Shown here: piece after piece, positions 53,719 to 62,070 of the stretch | Numbering within the stretch: position 1 is the first letter of the stretch | Layout of the letters: the number at the start of each line of letters is the position of its first letter | Origin: Pelotomaculum thermopropionicum SI | Lineage (GTDB): Bacteria; Bacillota; Desulfotomaculia; Desulfotomaculales; Pelotomaculaceae | Reading direction: 5' to 3' | DNA: 64,000 nt | Assembly (NCBI GenBank): GCA_000010565.1 | Contig: AP009389.1 | Location: forward strand, 1,736,001-1,800,000 | Notes under the pieces: model-generated | What the model was told of the DNA's origin: nothing | Database searches by the model: none | What the model saw: the letters and a program-made list of their open reading frames with translations, nothing else | Program-made: the position numbers and the translations under genes

Positions 53719-54183
53719 TTGGATAAAAAAAGAACCGTCGTGATCGGCGTGGGGAACTTGCTGTTCGGCGACGAAGGTATCGGCATCCATGCTGTAAACG
53801 AATTAAAAAAAGAGGCCCTGCCGCCGGAAGTAGAAGTTATTGACGGCGGTGCGGCCGGCCTGGACCTGATTTTTATGCTGGAAGGTGCCGCCCGCGCTAT
53901 AATCATCGACTGTACGGAGGCGGGGGCGGAACCGGGAACCATTTTCCGCATACCGGTCACCGATCTGGCTTTAAATGCCCCAAGCCGGGCGGTATCCCTG
54001 CACGACATCAGCCTTGTTGAGGCGCTGGCGCTGGCCGGCAAACTGGGCAAACTGCCTCCTACCGTAATTTACGGGGTTCAACCGGGTAAAGTTACCTGCA
54101 GCACAGAACTGTCAGAACCCGTTAAAAAAAACCTGCCCCGCCTGCTCAGTTTAATCAGGCAGGAAATGGCAGTTTTATACTAA
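53719..54183 (+). CDS. Hydrogenase maturation endopeptidase (HyaD/HybD/HupD family)
   Basis: A 154-residue protease that removes the C-terminal peptide of the large subunit after nickel insertion. The Ni-sensing ligands of HybD are present: Glu in GVGNLLFGDEGIGIH, Asp in AIIIDCTEAG and His in SLHDISL. The TTG at 53719 follows AAGGAGGG. It is the last gene of the hyp transcript; the matching substrate, the large subunit at 55.7 kb, keeps a 16-residue tail after the DPCxxCxxH site. Confidence 0.92.
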   Translation: MDKKRTVVIGVGNLLFGDEGIGIHAVNELKKEALPPEVEVIDGGAAGLDLIFMLEGAARAIIIDCTEAGAEPGTIFRIPVTDLALNAPSRAVSLHDISLVEALALAGKLGKLPPTVIYGVQPGKVTCSTELSEPVKKNLPRLLSLIRQEMAVLY

Positions 54184-54423
54184 TCAGTCAATAAATTTTA
54201 TTTGCATATCAAGTTTTCATGCAGGAATTTAAGTATAATAGTGGAATACCTATATGGACCATCTTATCACAACAATAAAATGTTGCTTCAATGCTCCAGA
54301 ATTCTCGGGACAGGATACAGGAGAAGGTGTTGTACTCCCCTGCATTAAAGGGGTTGCTGCTTAACCGGTTATAAAAGGCTTATCCTAACTTTTGCCGGGT
54401 AGTGCTTTTTAACAAAAAACTTC
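54184..54423 (+). other. Intergenic promoter/leader region before the hydrogenase operon
   Basis: A TATAAT lies at 54234-54239; no good -35 is 16-18 bases upstream, so it may need an activator. Downstream are two small inverted repeats (CAGGAG with CTCCCCTG near 54319-54341, and CCCC with GGGG near 54337-54353) that could be part of the leader RNA fold. No coding frame is supported. Confidence 0.45.
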
Positions 54424-54534
54424 CTCTCCGATCCTTCAGACCTAAGGCTTTGGCTACGGCTGCTGGACGACAGGGTTCCCCGGGAAACCGGAGCGCCTTC
54501 CATTGCGAAAAGGAGAGTTGGGTTGCATTAGCTG
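54424..54534 (+). promoter_or_regulatory. Riboswitch-like leader with antiterminator before the hydrogenase
   Basis: CTCTCC (54424-54429) and GGAGAG (54512-54517) can close a compact domain of about 94 bases that contains smaller helices (for example GGTTCCC with GGGAAACC, and GGA with TCC). Its 3' strand, CATTGCGAAAAG (54501-54512), is perfectly complementary over 12 bases to 54549-54560 in the following terminator. That helix and the terminator cannot form together. This is the logic of a transcriptional riboswitch. The ligand class is not recognised; T-box and cobalamin cores are absent. Confidence 0.6.
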
Positions 54535-54576
54535 CCGGGCCTGCCTTGCTTTTCGCAATGCAGGCCCGGATTTTTT
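54535..54576 (+). terminator. Conditional terminator in the hydrogenase leader
   Basis: CCGGGCCTGC pairs perfectly with GCAGGCCCGG (10 bp, 15-base loop), followed by A and TTTTTT. It lies about 140 bases upstream of the small-subunit gene, on the coding strand and after no gene, so it can act only as an attenuator. Confidence 0.85.
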
Positions 54577-54718
54577 AAGGCTTTTTCTGCCGCCTGCCGG
54601 GCACGGCAAGATTATCAGATTTAAACAAAGGGGGGAGCAGGGAAAACATCGGTCCAGGTTCATCTTCTAAAGGCATTTGCAATTCCGGAAAAAAATAGCT
54701 AACAGGAGGGAAAACAAC

Positions 54719-55717
54719 TTGGGCTTAACAAGGCGCGAATTTATCAAGCTGTGTATGACCACGGCAGCCGGTGCAAGCCTGTTCACGGTAATAGGGCCTG
54801 AACTGCAGGAAAGCCTGGCTCTGGCGGCAGAGGGAAAGCCCCCGGTAATCTGGCTGCAAGGGGCCAGTTGCACCGGATGCTCCATTTCGCTGCTGAACAG
54901 CGTCGACCCGGCAATTGAAAAGGTTATTCTCGATGTCATAAGTTTGAGGTATCATCCTAACATCTCTGCAGCCTCCGGTCATTTTGTGGCCGAAATTATG
55001 GATGAAATGCTGCTCAGTCACAAGGATCAGTTCATCCTGGTTGTAGAAGGCGCCATTCCGTTAAAAAACGACGGCAAGTACTGCACCATAGCCGAGAAAA
55101 ACGGCAGGGAAATAACCATGCTGAAGGCCGTCCAGGTGCTGGGCAATGCGGCCAAAGCCGTAATTGCCGCCGGACAGTGCGCTTCATACGGCGGCATCCC
55201 CGGCGGGGCGCCGAACCCGACCGGCGTGGTGGGCGTGAAAAAAGTTGTCACGAAAAAGCCGGTCATCAATATTTCCCTTTGCCCGATGCATCCCGACCAC
55301 TTCCTGGGAACGGTAGTGTATATTTTGAAGTACGGCGACATCCCGCCGCTTGACCGGTACGGCCGTCCCGCCATGTTCTATCCGAAGCCGATTCACGAAA
55401 GCTGCCTGAGAAGGCCTTATTTCGACAGCGGCAGGTTCGCCAGTTTTATCGGTGACGAGGGGTGCCTGGCGCTGCTGGGCTGCAAAGGTTTTGTAGGCTA
55501 CGCCGACTGTCCGGTGCGCGGGTGGAATAATAACGTAAACTGGTGCATAAAGGCAGGCGCCCCCTGCATGGCCTGCTCCGAACCGACCTTCCCCGATGCG
55601 GCTTCGCCCATTTACGGAGTGTATCCCTTAACCAACAAAACAGCGCCCGCTTCGGCACAGTTTGAGCCGCAGAAAACAGAAATTCTGGAGAAGAAAAGAG
55701 CGGGCAGAAAACTCTAA
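54719..55717 (+). CDS. hybO: [NiFe] hydrogenase small subunit, Tat-exported
   Basis: The Fe-S electron-relay subunit of a membrane-bound uptake-type hydrogenase. The N-terminus LTRREFIKLCMTTAAGASLF is a Tat signal with the RRxF(I)K motif. The mature part starts near KPPVIWLQGASCTGCSISLLNS (proximal cluster CxxC) and continues with GQCASYGG, CPMHPDHFLG and a Cys-rich C-terminus (GDEGCLALLGCKG, DCPVRGWNNN, CIKAGAPCMACSEPTFPD). The TTG at 54719 follows AGGAGGG. There is no C-terminal membrane anchor, as in HybO-like proteins where a separate subunit binds the membrane. The gene symbol is by analogy. Confidence 0.92.
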   Translation: MGLTRREFIKLCMTTAAGASLFTVIGPELQESLALAAEGKPPVIWLQGASCTGCSISLLNSVDPAIEKVILDVISLRYHPNISAASGHFVAEIMDEMLLSHKDQFILVVEGAIPLKNDGKYCTIAEKNGREITMLKAVQVLGNAAKAVIAAGQCASYGGIPGGAPNPTGVVGVKKVVTKKPVINISLCPMHPDHFLGTVVYILKYGDIPPLDRYGRPAMFYPKPIHESCLRRPYFDSGRFASFIGDEGCLALLGCKGFVGYADCPVRGWNNNVNWCIKAGAPCMACSEPTFPDAASPIYGVYPLTNKTAPASAQFEPQKTEILEKKRAGRKL

Positions 55718-55736: not shown

Positions 55737-57185
55737 GTGGCACAGCGAATAATTGTCGACCCGGTAACCCGAATTGAAGGGCACCTGAAAATAGAAGTGG
55801 AAGTTGAAAATAACAAGGTAATTGACGCCAAAACAAGCGGGACCTTATTCCGGGGCCTTGAGATCATCTTAAGAGGCCGCGACCCGCGCGACGCCTGCCA
55901 CTACGTCCAGCGAATCTGCGGCGTTTGCCCGATAGCTCACGGCCTGACCTCAATCCTGTGCCTTGACGACGCTTTCGGGGTAAAGCCGCCCGCCAACGGC
56001 AGGATTGTGCGCAACCTGATCCAGGGCGCAAACTACCTGCAGTCGCACATTCTCCATTTTTACCACCTGACCGCCCTGGATTACGTAAAGGGGCCTGACA
56101 CGGCGCCTTTCATTCCGCGTTACGAAGGTGATTACCGCCTGCCTAAGGAAGTAAACGACAAGGCCGTTGAGCATTACATCCAGGCCCTGACCATGCGGAA
56201 AAAAGCGCAGGAAATGCTGGCGGTTTTCGGCGCTAAAATGCCTCACGTTACCGCTTATACCGCCGGCGGAGTTACCGAACAGGTCACGCCGGAAAAAATC
56301 GCCCAGTTTAAAAACTACCTGCAGGAAATAACCTCCTTTATCGACAACGTTTACATTCCCGACGTGCTTGCCGTAGCCGGTGTCTATGGCGACGACTGGT
56401 TTGCCATCGGGACCGGCTGCAAAAATATGCTGGCATACGGCGGGTTCAGGCTGACTGACGAAGACGACCCGGACGGGCAGGCGCAGCTTTTCAAGCGCGG
56501 CCGCTATACACAGGGTCAGTACGCCAGCGTGGACAAAATGAAAATTACAGAGGAAGTCAAATACTCCTGGTATGAAGACAGCACTACCGGGAAATACCCC
56601 GGCGAAGGGGCCACCGTTCCGGCACCCGACAAAAAGGGCGCTTATTCCTGGCTCAAGGCGCCGCGCTACGAAGGACTGCCGCATGAAGTCGGCCCTCTGG
56701 CCCGGCAATGGGTGGGCAAGCAAAAAGACGTGGTCAACCTGGGAGAAAAGGCCTTTTCAGTACTGGGCCGGCACTTTGCCCGCGCCATCGAGGCCTCACA
56801 GGTGGCCCATGCCATGGCGGAATGGCTGAACCAGCTTGTGCCAGGCCAACCCACCTATACCCCCTTTAACGTTCCCAAAGAAGGAGCCGGGGTTGGCCTT
56901 CATGAAGCGCCGCGCGGCGCCCTGGGGCACTGGATCGTGATAAAGGACTATAAAATTGAAAACTACCAGGCGGTAGTGCCTACCACCTGGAACGGCGGCC
57001 CCAGGGACGACAAAGGGCAACCCGGCCCTATTGAACAGGCCCTCATCGGAGCGCCGGTAAAAGACCCAAACAACCCGATCGAACTGGTGCGCATTGTCCG
57101 GTCCTTCGACCCCTGCATTGCCTGCGCCGTTCATGTACTGGAAGTTAAAGGCATAACGAAAGAACCTAAAAAATATATAATTTAG
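55737..57185 (+). CDS. hybC: [NiFe] hydrogenase large (catalytic) subunit
   Basis: The subunit holding the NiFe(CN)2CO site. The L1 motif is RICGVCPIAHG (Cys61, Cys64) and the L2 motif DPCIACAVH (Cys460, Cys463, His466); all four nickel ligands are Cys, with no selenocysteine. Maturation should cut after His466, removing 16 residues. The N-terminus IVDPVTRIEGHLKIEVEV is typical of the group 1 family. The subunit lacks its own signal and would be exported bound to the small subunit. The GTG at 55737 follows GAGGTGA, 19 bases after the small-subunit gene. Confidence 0.95.
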   Translation: MAQRIIVDPVTRIEGHLKIEVEVENNKVIDAKTSGTLFRGLEIILRGRDPRDACHYVQRICGVCPIAHGLTSILCLDDAFGVKPPANGRIVRNLIQGANYLQSHILHFYHLTALDYVKGPDTAPFIPRYEGDYRLPKEVNDKAVEHYIQALTMRKKAQEMLAVFGAKMPHVTAYTAGGVTEQVTPEKIAQFKNYLQEITSFIDNVYIPDVLAVAGVYGDDWFAIGTGCKNMLAYGGFRLTDEDDPDGQAQLFKRGRYTQGQYASVDKMKITEEVKYSWYEDSTTGKYPGEGATVPAPDKKGAYSWLKAPRYEGLPHEVGPLARQWVGKQKDVVNLGEKAFSVLGRHFARAIEASQVAHAMAEWLNQLVPGQPTYTPFNVPKEGAGVGLHEAPRGALGHWIVIKDYKIENYQAVVPTTWNGGPRDDKGQPGPIEQALIGAPVKDPNNPIELVRIVRSFDPCIACAVHVLEVKGITKEPKKYII

Positions 57186-57251: not shown

Positions 57252-58085
57252 ATGTCGAGTGCTGTTAAGTCAGCAAACGGTGTTCTGGTAGATGTTACCA
57301 AATGTATAGGCTGCCGCAGTTGCGCAACGGCCTGCAAATCATGGAACGACCTGCCTGAAAGAGCGGCCGAGAATACGGAAAGATGGGACGTCCAGCCACA
57401 GATGGACTCGGACACCTGGACCCAGGTAAGCTACTTTCTGGTAGGCCAGGGCGAGGAGCGGAAGTGGCGGTTTGTAAAGAGGCAGTGCATGCACTGCAAC
57501 GAACCTGCCTGCGAATCCGCCTGTTTTACCCATTCATTTCTCAAAACAGAGCAGGGTGCGGTTATCTATAAGCCTACCGAATTAAACAAGGATTATTGTG
57601 TGGGCTGCCGCTACTGCATGATTGCCTGTCCTTTCGATATACCCAAGTTTCAGTACGAAAAAACTTTCCCGTATGTGCAGAAATGCCGGTTCTGCTACGA
57701 CCGGATGCTAGACGGCAACCAGCGTCCCGCTTGCGTAACCGCCTGCCCCACGGGCGCCCTGAAGTACGGCAACCGGGAAGCCCTTCTGGTCGAGGCCTGG
57801 CAGCGGATTAACGGCAACGCCAAATACGTCAGGCACGTGTACGGGGAAAAAGAGTACGGGGGCACGTCCTGGATGTATATTTCAGACGTTCCCTTCGATC
57901 AGCTTGGCTTTAAAACAAACGTATCGGAACGGTCCATCCCCTCTTACTCCTGGCAGGTACTCAAATGGACACCCTATATTTTCTTTGGCTGGGGCGCCAT
58001 TCTTACGGCTATGCGCCTTTATACCAAGGGGCGGGCCCAGGTGCACGATGAAGCGGAGATGTACGCTCCCGTTGATCAAAAATGA
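57252..58085 (+). CDS. Four-cluster ferredoxin-like electron transfer subunit (HybA/FdnH-like)
   Basis: A 277-residue Fe-S protein with sixteen Cys in four groups: CIGCRSCATACK, CMHCNEPACESAC, CVGCRYCMIACP and CRFCYDRM...CVTACP, the dicluster pattern of HybA, FdnH and DmsB. One membrane helix lies near the C-terminus (WTPYIFFGWGAILTAM). There is no N-terminal signal, unlike E. coli HybA; this recalls FdnH, which is exported by hitchhiking. It should pass electrons from the small subunit to the HybB-like membrane subunit. The ATG at 57252 follows AGGAGGTG. Confidence 0.9.
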   Translation: MSSAVKSANGVLVDVTKCIGCRSCATACKSWNDLPERAAENTERWDVQPQMDSDTWTQVSYFLVGQGEERKWRFVKRQCMHCNEPACESACFTHSFLKTEQGAVIYKPTELNKDYCVGCRYCMIACPFDIPKFQYEKTFPYVQKCRFCYDRMLDGNQRPACVTACPTGALKYGNREALLVEAWQRINGNAKYVRHVYGEKEYGGTSWMYISDVPFDQLGFKTNVSERSIPSYSWQVLKWTPYIFFGWGAILTAMRLYTKGRAQVHDEAEMYAPVDQK

Positions 58086-58127: not shown

Positions 58128-59297
58128 ATGCAAAAAAGGAACTGGAGCTTCAGGATCACCTGGTTCAGGGTCTTGTTAATCATCTTTGTACTTATTGCCG
58201 TAGGGGCAGCTATTTACCGCTTTATCTACGGCCTGGGTTCCATTACCAACCTGAACGACCGCTGGCCTTGGGGGCTGTGGATCGGCTTTGACCTGCTTTG
58301 CGGCATTGCCCTGGCCGGCGGCGGTTTCAGCACGGCGCTGATCGTTCACGTCTTGCACAGGGAAAAGTACCTTCCCATAGCCCGGGCCGCGCTTTTAACT
58401 TCGATGCTCGGTTATATCATTGCCCTGGCCAGCCTTTTCCTGGATATCGGCAGATGGTTTAACTTCTGGCGACCGTTCTTTTTCTGGGGCTACCACTCGG
58501 TGCTGTTTGAAGTATTCTGGTGCATAGCGCTTTACACCACCGTCCAGGTGCTGGAGTTCGGCGATATCTTCTTTGAAAAGGTCCACTGCCCGCCGTTAAA
58601 GAAGGTCTTGCATTTTTTCATGCCGTTCCTTCTCATAATCGGCATCGTCCTGCCCACCCTGCACCAGTCGTCGCTGGGCTCGCTCTATGTCGTGGCCGTT
58701 GACAAGCTCAATCCCCTGTGGTGGTCAATGATTATCCCGTTTTTCTTCGTCTGGTCCGCATTTTTCCTGGGACCGGCCATGGTCACCATTGAAGGCACCC
58801 TGGCAGCAAGGGCCTACGGACGGAAACCCGAACTGCCAGTCTTTGAGAGCCTGACCAAGGTTACCTTGTGGATGATGATCGTTTACCTTATTGTTAAAGT
58901 CATCGATTTAAGCTATCGCGGTGTCTTATCCAGCGCATTTAACGGTTCTTTCGAAAGCAACATGTTCCTGATTGAGATGATCGTTTTCGTTATCCTGCCA
59001 ATCATCATGTATGCCATTCCGGGCATCCGCAAAAAGCTCTGGGGCGTCCTGACCGCCTCAATTCTGGTGGTTGCCGGGGTCATCTTTAACCGCATGAACG
59101 TGGTCTTTACGGGAATGGCCAAAAGTGTCGGCGGCCATTACTTCCCCACCGTCTGGGAATTCGTGATCACCATTGGGATGTGGAGCGCGCTGGTGCTGTT
59201 ATACTGCTTTATCGTAGAAAACTTTCCCATTCTGCCTAAAGAAGAACATGTATCACACGGCAGCGGTTTTGCCTCGAAACCTGGCGTTCATGCCTGA
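58128..59297 (+). CDS. hybB: HybB/NrfD-type integral membrane quinone-reactive subunit
   Basis: A 389-residue membrane protein with about nine or ten segments. The conserved start is ITNLNDRWPWGLWIGFDLLCGIALAGGGF, cited in part as NDRWPWGLWIGFDLLCGIAL, and the QSSLGSLYVV segment is typical of HybB. It carries no heme-binding His pattern that I can see. It should connect the extracytoplasmic hydrogenase to menaquinone. The ATG at 58128 follows GCTGGAGGTGAGG. It is the last gene of the hydrogenase operon; a terminator follows. Confidence 0.92.
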   Translation: MQKRNWSFRITWFRVLLIIFVLIAVGAAIYRFIYGLGSITNLNDRWPWGLWIGFDLLCGIALAGGGFSTALIVHVLHREKYLPIARAALLTSMLGYIIALASLFLDIGRWFNFWRPFFFWGYHSVLFEVFWCIALYTTVQVLEFGDIFFEKVHCPPLKKVLHFFMPFLLIIGIVLPTLHQSSLGSLYVVAVDKLNPLWWSMIIPFFFVWSAFFLGPAMVTIEGTLAARAYGRKPELPVFESLTKVTLWMMIVYLIVKVIDLSYRGVLSSAFNGSFESNMFLIEMIVFVILPIIMYAIPGIRKKLWGVLTASILVVAGVIFNRMNVVFTGMAKSVGGHYFPTVWEFVITIGMWSALVLLYCFIVENFPILPKEEHVSHGSGFASKPGVHA

Positions 59298-60648: not shown

Positions 60649-61011
60649 CTAAAAAGCATTTTCAAAATGTTCCAGCCTTTTTACCCTGCCCTCACGGTCG
60701 AACAGCACGGCGATAACGTCAAACCGGCACATGCTGCCGGTTTTCCCTTTTTCTTTGAGGTACTGCCAGGCCAGCAGCCTCAGCCTGCTCTTTTTTCTCC
60801 CGGTAATGCTCTCCTGCGCCAGCCCGTATTCTTCACCGGTTCGCGCCCGCACTTCCACAAAAACCAGCACGTCTCCGTCACTTACAACCAGATCCAGCTC
60901 GCCCAGCCGGCAGCAGTGATTTCTGCTCAAAATGCGGCAGCCTTTCTTTTCCAGGTAACGGGCTGCTGCCTCTTCCCCCATCCGCCCCAGCAGCTTACGC
61001 GCATCCGCCAT
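60649..61011 (-). CDS. yraN: YraN/UPF0102 family endonuclease-fold protein
   Basis: A 120-residue restriction-endonuclease-like protein. The family signature is LGRMGEEAAARYLEKKG, then LGELDLVVSDGDVLVFVEVRAR, cited here as GELDLVVSDGDVLVFVEVRA, in which E-D-E-x-R form a PD-(D/E)xK-like site. The ATG at 61011 has GAGGGGTGA upstream; a GTG at 61020 overlaps the rnhB stop (GTGA). It is conserved beside rnhB in many bacteria and has been linked to Holliday-type structures, but its role is not settled. Confidence 0.9.
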   Translation of the reverse strand: MADARKLLGRMGEEAAARYLEKKGCRILSRNHCCRLGELDLVVSDGDVLVFVEVRARTGEEYGLAQESITGRKKSRLRLLAWQYLKEKGKTGSMCRFDVIAVLFDREGRVKRLEHFENAF

Positions 61012-61016
61012 GCGGT

Positions 61017-61817
61017 TCACCCCTCACATTTTTGCCGGCTGCCGCAGTTTTTTACCGGGCGGTATCCTGCCCGGTGGAGCGGGCAGGGGCCGTACCGCTC
61101 CAGGGCCGCCAGATGCTCCGGCGTGGCATAGCCTTTATGGCGGTTAAAACCGTATTGCGGATACTGAACGTGATAAAAATCCATCAGGCGGTCCCTCAGC
61201 ACTTTGGCCAGGATGGATGCTGCCGCAACAGAAGCGCTCAGGCCGTCTCCCCCGGTCAAGGCCAGTTGAGGCAATTCCAGCCGGCTGATGCGGTAACCGT
61301 CCACCAGAAGATATGCAGGCCTTATTTTGAGCTTCAAAACCGCCCTCCGCATGGCGGTGAGGCTGGCCGCGTGAATATTTTCGTTAAAGATTTCCTCTAC
61401 AGTTGATATGCCGGCCGACCAGGCCAGGGCCACCTTTTTGATCCGCGCGGCCAGCTCTGCCCGCTTTGATGGATTGAGTTTTTTCGAATCGTTTAATCCG
61501 GCTAGAGCCAGGTCCGCCACGGGGGGCAGAATGACCGCAGCAGCTACCACGGGACCGGCCAGAGGCCCCCGGCCCGCCTCGTCCACCCCTGCCACCGGGC
61601 TGTACCCCTGGGCGATCAAGCTGTTTTCGTAAATATACAGTTTTTGTAAACGCTCTGCTTCTGCCGCCATTTTGTTTTCATCCCGCTTAAGACGGCGGTA
61701 TATCTCCGCCACTCCCGCCCTTTTGTCGCAGGCCAGAGCGCGCAGAAAATCCTCATCCAGCCCTGCCCGACTGCCGGCCAGTTTCCTTATTTCTGCCACC
61801 GTTAAACCGGAAACCAT
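61017..61817 (-). CDS. rnhB: Ribonuclease HII
   Basis: Removes RNA from RNA-DNA hybrids, including single ribonucleotides. The active-site blocks are VAGVDEAGRGPLAGPVVAAAV (Asp-Glu), cited as GVDEAGRGPLAGP, the Asp in LNDSKKLNPSKR, the Asp in YLLVDG and ASILAKVLRDRLM. About 75 extra N-terminal residues with helices precede the catalytic domain, a feature of Firmicutes RNase HII. The ATG at 61817 follows GGAGGGG; an ATG at 61838 is in frame. It is coupled to yraN. Confidence 0.93.
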   Translation of the reverse strand: MVSGLTVAEIRKLAGSRAGLDEDFLRALACDKRAGVAEIYRRLKRDENKMAAEAERLQKLYIYENSLIAQGYSPVAGVDEAGRGPLAGPVVAAAVILPPVADLALAGLNDSKKLNPSKRAELAARIKKVALAWSAGISTVEEIFNENIHAASLTAMRRAVLKLKIRPAYLLVDGYRISRLELPQLALTGGDGLSASVAAASILAKVLRDRLMDFYHVQYPQYGFNRHKGYATPEHLAALERYGPCPLHRAGYRPVKNCGSRQKCEG

Positions 61818-62070
61818 CACAAAAACCCCTCCACTCATCTGTAGATAATTTCCACCGCCAGCCGCTCAACTCCTGCCTTTTTTTAAACTTCTTTCCGCCT
61901 ATTTCCGGCCGGGACGGACAGGCCAGGGCAAACAAAAGCAGGATATATACGGTAAAAAGGGAAAAGCTGTCCTTCAGCTAAAAGGTCACAAAAATTAATA
62001 TTTTTCAGCAGGATATATGGGCGTTATGTAGTAATATATGTATACGAAGATTTGAAGGGGGGGGTTTTAT

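Follow-up and report, generated by a model that had tools for sequence, protein, structure and literature searches.

A Moco/Tuco riboswitch lacking P3 precedes a [NiFe] hydrogenase operon in Pelotomaculum thermopropionicum and probably acts as an OFF switch

Here we describe an RNA leader of Pelotomaculum thermopropionicum SI, located in a 64-kb window (the whole segment of DNA that was analysed) ahead of a [NiFe] hydrogenase operon. It is near certain that the element exists and that it belongs to RF01055, the Molybdenum/Tungsten cofactor (Moco/Tuco) riboswitch family; the RNA class is thus a known one, and it is the hydrogenase target that is unusual. Class membership, the anatomy of the leader, the predicted mutual exclusion of its two alternative stems and the conserved link between RNA and gene are directly supported. 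We consider it likely that this P3-less RNA works as a transcription-attenuation OFF switch, by which the Mo/W cofactor would repress the [NiFe] hydrogenase.

Class and anatomy of the leader

A cmscan search with Rfam 15 aligned positions 54414-54531 of the forward strand to positions 1-135 of the RF01055 model with 62.3 bits, against a gathering score of 36, and this was the only above-threshold match in the whole window. A first-pass annotation had vaguely likened segments of the leader to the molybdenum-cofactor motif and had left the class unassigned, admitting a new metabolite- or metal-sensing RNA; the resemblance proves to extend over the full length of a known family, so that the unassigned label and the suggestion of novelty are both superseded. 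No Rfam match to the NiCo (czcD) nickel-cobalt riboswitch was obtained at E values up to 1, and a nickel/cobalt or novel RNA class is rejected, RF01055 alone being above threshold. Matches to RydC and mir-1549 were sub-threshold and overlapped the terminator. The RNA may already be present in the automatic Rfam annotation of this genome.

P1, P2, P4, P5, the GAAA tetraloop and the conserved junction are all found in the RF01055 alignment of the window copy, from which the P3 stem of the model is deleted. P1 is formed by CTCTCC (54424-54429) and GGAGAG (54512-54517), as seen in the sequence and the alignment. The alignment and covariation also delimit P2, whose 5′ strand (54432-54442) pairs with 54458-54467 plus one further base and whose outermost pair is U-A instead of the consensus G-C; the P4 hairpin (54473-54498), with its tetraloop at 54484-54487; and P5 (54499-54508, pairing 54499-54500 with 54507-54508), which carries a compensatory change from C-G to U-A. 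The 3′ side of the aptamer contains the 5′ half of an antiterminator, CATTGCGAAAAG (54501-54512), which matches perfectly, over 12 bp, its 3′ half CTTTTCGCAATG (54549-54560) in the loop of an intrinsic terminator hairpin (54535-54569). The latter has a perfect 10-bp stem (54535-54544/54560-54569) and is followed, after one A, by six T (54571-54576). P1, both alternative stems and the T-run lie where the first-pass annotation had placed them. A consensus scan of 54150-54740, including 54577-54718, found no sigma-70-type promoter.

The covariation that the first-pass annotation proposed to look for in homologous leaders is present. In the alignment of 17 hydrogenase-linked aptamers, 88.2% of cells are paired and both sides have changed at 14 pairs; the covariation score is 0.265, compared with 0.148 in shuffled alignments, was reached by none of 500 shuffles, and falls to 0.098 or less if the partners are slid. 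The total folding energy of the leader taken alone is ordinary (z = -1.47), which is the one point in favour of a constitutive attenuator or a chance hairpin under no ligand control. The evidence for the element resides in the covariance-model match, and this match, the covariation and a position conserved across two families make either of these alternatives very improbable.

P3 is missing in 16 of the 17 hydrogenase-linked copies. According to the main text of Regulski 2008 (PMC2408646), copies without P3 track tungsten-using organisms and were proposed to sense Tuco. The remaining copy, in Pelotomaculum terephthalicicum JT (L020:5659-5788), differs from the other 16 in carrying an ATGGCC/GGCCAT hairpin where P3 would stand; this could mark a preference for Moco instead of Tuco, and the preference for W or Mo may vary.

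The target operon

The [NiFe] hydrogenase small subunit, with a twin-arginine signal, is encoded at 54719..55717 of the forward strand (TIGR00391, 298.9 bits, cut-off 179.5) behind a Shine-Dalgarno (SD) sequence AGGAGG at 54704..54709. From its sequence, the gene likely starts at a TTG codon, and the start region can be aligned in relatives. On the same strand follow the large subunit (55737..57185; NF033181, 755.6 bits, cut-off 600), whose C-terminal motif DPCIACAVH has Cys and not Sec, a HybA/HmcB-like 4Fe-4S electron-transfer subunit (57252..58085) and a HybB/HmcC (NrfD-like) membrane subunit (58128..59297), the last two below equivalog cut-offs. These profiles, together with the RF01055 match, bear out the early proposal of a riboswitch attenuator ahead of a [NiFe] hydrogenase operon.

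From knowledge of their families, we take it that none of the four products uses Mo or W. The usual association of RF01055, with a gene that makes, imports or uses the Mo/W cofactor, therefore does not hold for this membrane-bound [NiFe] hydrogenase, and the remark in the first-pass annotation that such a motif would be odd before a nickel enzyme was well founded. Moreover, hydrogenase operons of the HybOABC or HysAB type are usually controlled by proteins. Membership in RF01055 stands despite this target, because it rests on the RNA itself.

One could suppose that the aptamer is degenerate or repurposed, keeping the Moco fold for another ligand (nickel or a hydrogenase maturation intermediate) or for none, all the more as the target uses nickel and the closing pairs of P2 and P5 are off consensus. 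Nevertheless, the changes in P2 and P5 are compensatory and retain pairing, that of P5 recurs in the riboswitch copies ahead of TupA-like genes and of an [FeFe] hydrogenase, and no nickel/cobalt riboswitch family matches; we regard this explanation as improbable.

Alternative folding of the leader

Perfect Watson-Crick stems of at least 12 bp arose in only 2 of 1000 dinucleotide shuffles of the stretch, and those of at least 10 bp in 17 of 1000. The first-pass annotation held that the antiterminator excludes the terminator. Folding predicts the same, with a refinement: the two stems have a single base in common, 54560, and exclusion would result from the use of the loop, since the antiterminator takes up 12 of its approximately 15 bases and, judging from geometry, both stems together would form an unworkable pseudoknot.

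Co-transcriptional folding was modelled by folding growing transcripts and computing pairing probabilities for each transcript end. P1 remains intact up to about 54540; at ends 54560-54563 the antiterminator reaches a probability of 0.90-0.91 with P1 open, and at 54560 the antiterminator state (-51.5 kcal/mol) is favoured over the P1 state (-41.0 kcal/mol) by about 10 kcal/mol. Once 54566-54572 have been synthesized, the state combining terminator and P1 prevails, the terminator having a probability of 0.98 at 54572-54576. At equilibrium the full leader also favours the terminator (-61.2 versus -54.9 kcal/mol), and read-through would therefore rely on kinetics. Altogether, the model predicts a kinetic OFF switch.

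Over 22 copies, native pairs of aptamer and expression platform are more complementary than swapped ones (permutation p = 0.0005), and the complementarity between aptamer and terminator loop in the window copy exceeds that of shuffles (p = 0.013). The specificity of the antiterminator is borderline within the hydrogenase-linked copies taken alone (p = 0.052); L021, L023 and L024 show no clear antiterminator.

Conservation of the link with the hydrogenase

We gathered orthologues of the small subunit from GTDB genomes and scanned their loci with Rfam. Among the matches listed, the switch lies ahead of 8 of the 10 orthologues of the window's family, its own genome counted, and of all seven of a second family (f16). 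Among the more distant orthologues listed (f12, f15, f8 and f2) it was found by Rfam in none of the 13 scanned, nor did our own model R1 find it in these outgroups. In a maximum-likelihood tree, the two families form one clade of 17 rows (support 100/98), 15 of them with the switch; the two exceptions belong to genomes G011 and G012, each of which has a further copy of the gene that does carry it. The presence of the switch requires 2 changes on this tree, against a mean of 10.3 for shuffled labels, and the economical reading of these sequences would be one gain, then one loss after duplication. The link is not accidental: it is confined to one clade of syntrophs and has been kept there. Second hydrogenase copies without riboswitch, 81% identical to that of the window, occur at L066, L067 and L019, each in a genome that also contains a copy with the switch, and they offer a natural comparison between regulated and unregulated hydrogenases.

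One could also suppose that the hydrogenase is a mere passenger, the switch serving a formate dehydrogenase (from 63319) further along the transcript. Its alpha gene is indeed on the same strand, some 4 kb beyond the hydrogenase genes. However, open reading frames on the opposite strand (60649-61838, one of them resembling RNase HII) intervene, and in every orthologue that bears the switch, it is at most about 630 nt from the small subunit; the passenger explanation is thus disfavoured and very improbable.

A rule for all [NiFe] hydrogenases is likewise rejected, since paralogues about 41% identical have the switch in 1 of 12 cases and distant homologues, 45% identical, in 0 of 6. The single positive case (L074:1079-1193, genome G006) is an RF01055 element of 42.7 bits, with a weak P1 and a terminator, ahead of a distinct [NiFe] hydrogenase whose small subunit is 41% identical; it was likely recruited independently. 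Upstream of the same [NiFe] hydrogenase in Pelotomaculum propionicicum MGP (L017:5388-5801), a Moco/Tuco aptamer is followed 10 nt on by a c-di-GMP-I aptamer (RF01051, 62.7 bits) and a shared terminator-like hairpin; beyond these lies another Moco/Tuco aptamer, which has a separate terminator. Such an arrangement, a possible two-signal RNA gate, was seen at no hydrogenase besides this one.

Other copies in the genome and a shared ligand

The P. thermopropionicum SI genome, a single contig of 3,025,375 bases, contains 10 RF01055 copies. Their neighbours include genes for TupA-like binding proteins (L012), a TupB/WtpC-like transporter (L014), a MOT1 molybdate transporter and an operon with a nitrate-reductase-gamma-like membrane protein (both L011), a sigma-54 response regulator followed by a molybdopterin aldehyde-oxidase-type enzyme (L013) and a cytosolic formate dehydrogenase (L015); the TupA-, TupB- and WtpC-like proteins all score below NCBIfam equivalog cut-offs.

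Three further aptamers stand in series (L013:1035-1546; G000:C1:656534-657045) before a Tat-signal [FeFe] hydrogenase (PF02906, 317.8 bits) and an HmcB/HybA-like ferredoxin. Aptamers 1 and 3 each have a terminator-like hairpin of their own, as probably does aptamer 2. This exported enzyme is unrelated to the [NiFe] hydrogenase, and the presence of a second, unrelated hydrogenase under three such switches in the same genome supports the OFF reading. Besides the P. thermopropionicum genome (G000), a full match at the [FeFe] hydrogenase exists in G010 (one copy, L154), and G003 has two or more partial copies adjoining an assembly gap (L151); a universal link is rejected for this enzyme, the other close orthologues scanned having no RF01055.

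The window aptamer is about 70-71% identical to the copy ahead of the TupA-like genes and to copies 2 and 3 ahead of the [FeFe] hydrogenase, about as close as to its P. propionicicum counterpart (71%), and all these P. thermopropionicum aptamers have in common the unusual U-A pair of P5 and the terminator. Such identity, with the same P5 variant and the same terminator, argues for one ligand, and suggests that whole switches were duplicated within genomes.

The formate dehydrogenase side

In the cytosolic formate dehydrogenase operon, RF01055 has a different platform. The copy of P. thermopropionicum (L015:6712-6833, minus strand) lies inside the operon and has counterparts in about 13 other genomes. 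In these approximately 14 genomes of the family, 8-16 nt separate the end of the element from the start of the catalytic subunit, a space too short for a terminator. Most relatives have an SD sequence GGGAGG, complementary to CCUCCC of the aptamer; this pairing being possible, the open aptamer would hide the SD of the formate dehydrogenase. Folding predicts that SD access drops without P1 in 10 of 11 relatives, with a pairing probability between CCUCCC and the SD of at least 0.36 in eight; the complementarity is partly trivial, because CCUCC resembles an anti-SD. The P. thermopropionicum copy gives an SD access of 0.53 with P1 and 0.57 without it, and hence no clear prediction of ON control. 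Translational ON control of the cytosolic formate dehydrogenase is thus predicted by folding in most relatives.

These copies look compatible with an ON switch, and a single genome may thus contain switches of both directions. One could then propose that the cofactor also favours read-through into the hydrogenase operon, the enzyme being made together with Mo/W enzymes. Against this, the 3′ side of the aptamer itself supplies one half of the antiterminator, whose formation the ligand should therefore oppose, and we hold an ON direction at the hydrogenase to be unlikely, though less so than the other alternatives considered here.

It is tempting, as a tentative proposal that we judge somewhat less likely than not, to join both sides into an RNA-encoded choice of electron carrier in syntrophs: one tungsten-cofactor riboswitch class would use transcription termination to turn OFF the two extracytoplasmic hydrogenases, [NiFe] and [FeFe], and translation to turn ON the cytosolic formate dehydrogenase, the supply of W or Mo thus setting hydrogen versus formate transfer to the methanogen. 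In published transcriptomes, coculture raises the cytosolic Fdh II of P. thermopropionicum by over 4 log2 units, and expression of the NiFe hydrogenase and of two Fe hydrogenases is low and shows a moderate decrease (PMC6046458); since metals were not varied, these data fit the OFF/ON picture only loosely.

Proposed mechanism and comparison with known systems

Regarding the OFF switch that we favour for the [NiFe] operon, we infer the identity of the ligand, the direction of control and the physiological purpose as follows. When the W (or Mo) cofactor is abundant, it would bind the aptamer during transcription, fixing P1 and the 3′ side of the aptamer; 54501-54512 would then be barred from 54549-54560, the terminator would form and the hydrogenase operon would stay silent. 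When the cofactor is scarce, the 3′ side of the aptamer would pair with the terminator loop, the polymerase would read through and the hydrogenase would be made. Being free of Mo and W, this enzyme could provide an alternative redox outlet when the Mo/W-dependent formate dehydrogenases cannot mature. In Pelobacter carbinolicus, hydrogenase activity hardly differs between W and Mo (PMC4275255), a result that would count against the OFF reading if such a switch exists there.

If the direction is right, trace-metal supply would be linked to whether syntrophs export their electrons as hydrogen or as formate, a question that arises repeatedly for methanogenic communities.

The operon resembles the HybOABC and HysAB group 1 [NiFe] operons in its small and large subunits, 4Fe-4S protein and NrfD-like membrane protein, and differs from them in the Moco/Tuco riboswitch that precedes it. 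In turn, the leader shares with the RF01055 elements described in the main text of Regulski 2008 (PMC2408646) the aptamer architecture, the GAAA-capped P4, a terminator-type platform and the occurrence of tandem copies; the targets which that study lists belong to cofactor synthesis, to the transport of Mo/W or to enzymes that use Mo/W, whereas here the target is a Mo/W-free hydrogenase. The terms "hydrogenase" and "Pelotomaculum" are absent from that main text, and a hydrogenase target of RF01055 was not found in the accessible full-text literature, though the supplement of the same study could list one; the one paper found to mention both this riboswitch and a hydrogenase places the riboswitch before moaA/moaC.

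A tie between hydrogenase choice and metal availability has been predicted for NikR and the [Fe] hydrogenase of Desulfovibrio desulfuricans (PMC545781); NikR is a nickel-sensing protein repressor, and here an RNA for the Mo/W cofactor would take that role. The closest parallel in logic would be the B12 riboswitches on nrdDG (PMC545781), in which a cofactor-sensing RNA shuts off a cofactor-independent enzyme. The RNA and the cofactor are different, and the enzyme would be here a substitute (hydrogen versus formate) and not an isozyme. If true, the rule that a cofactor represses the cofactor-free alternative would extend from B12 to the Mo/W cofactor, and to substitutes besides isozymes.
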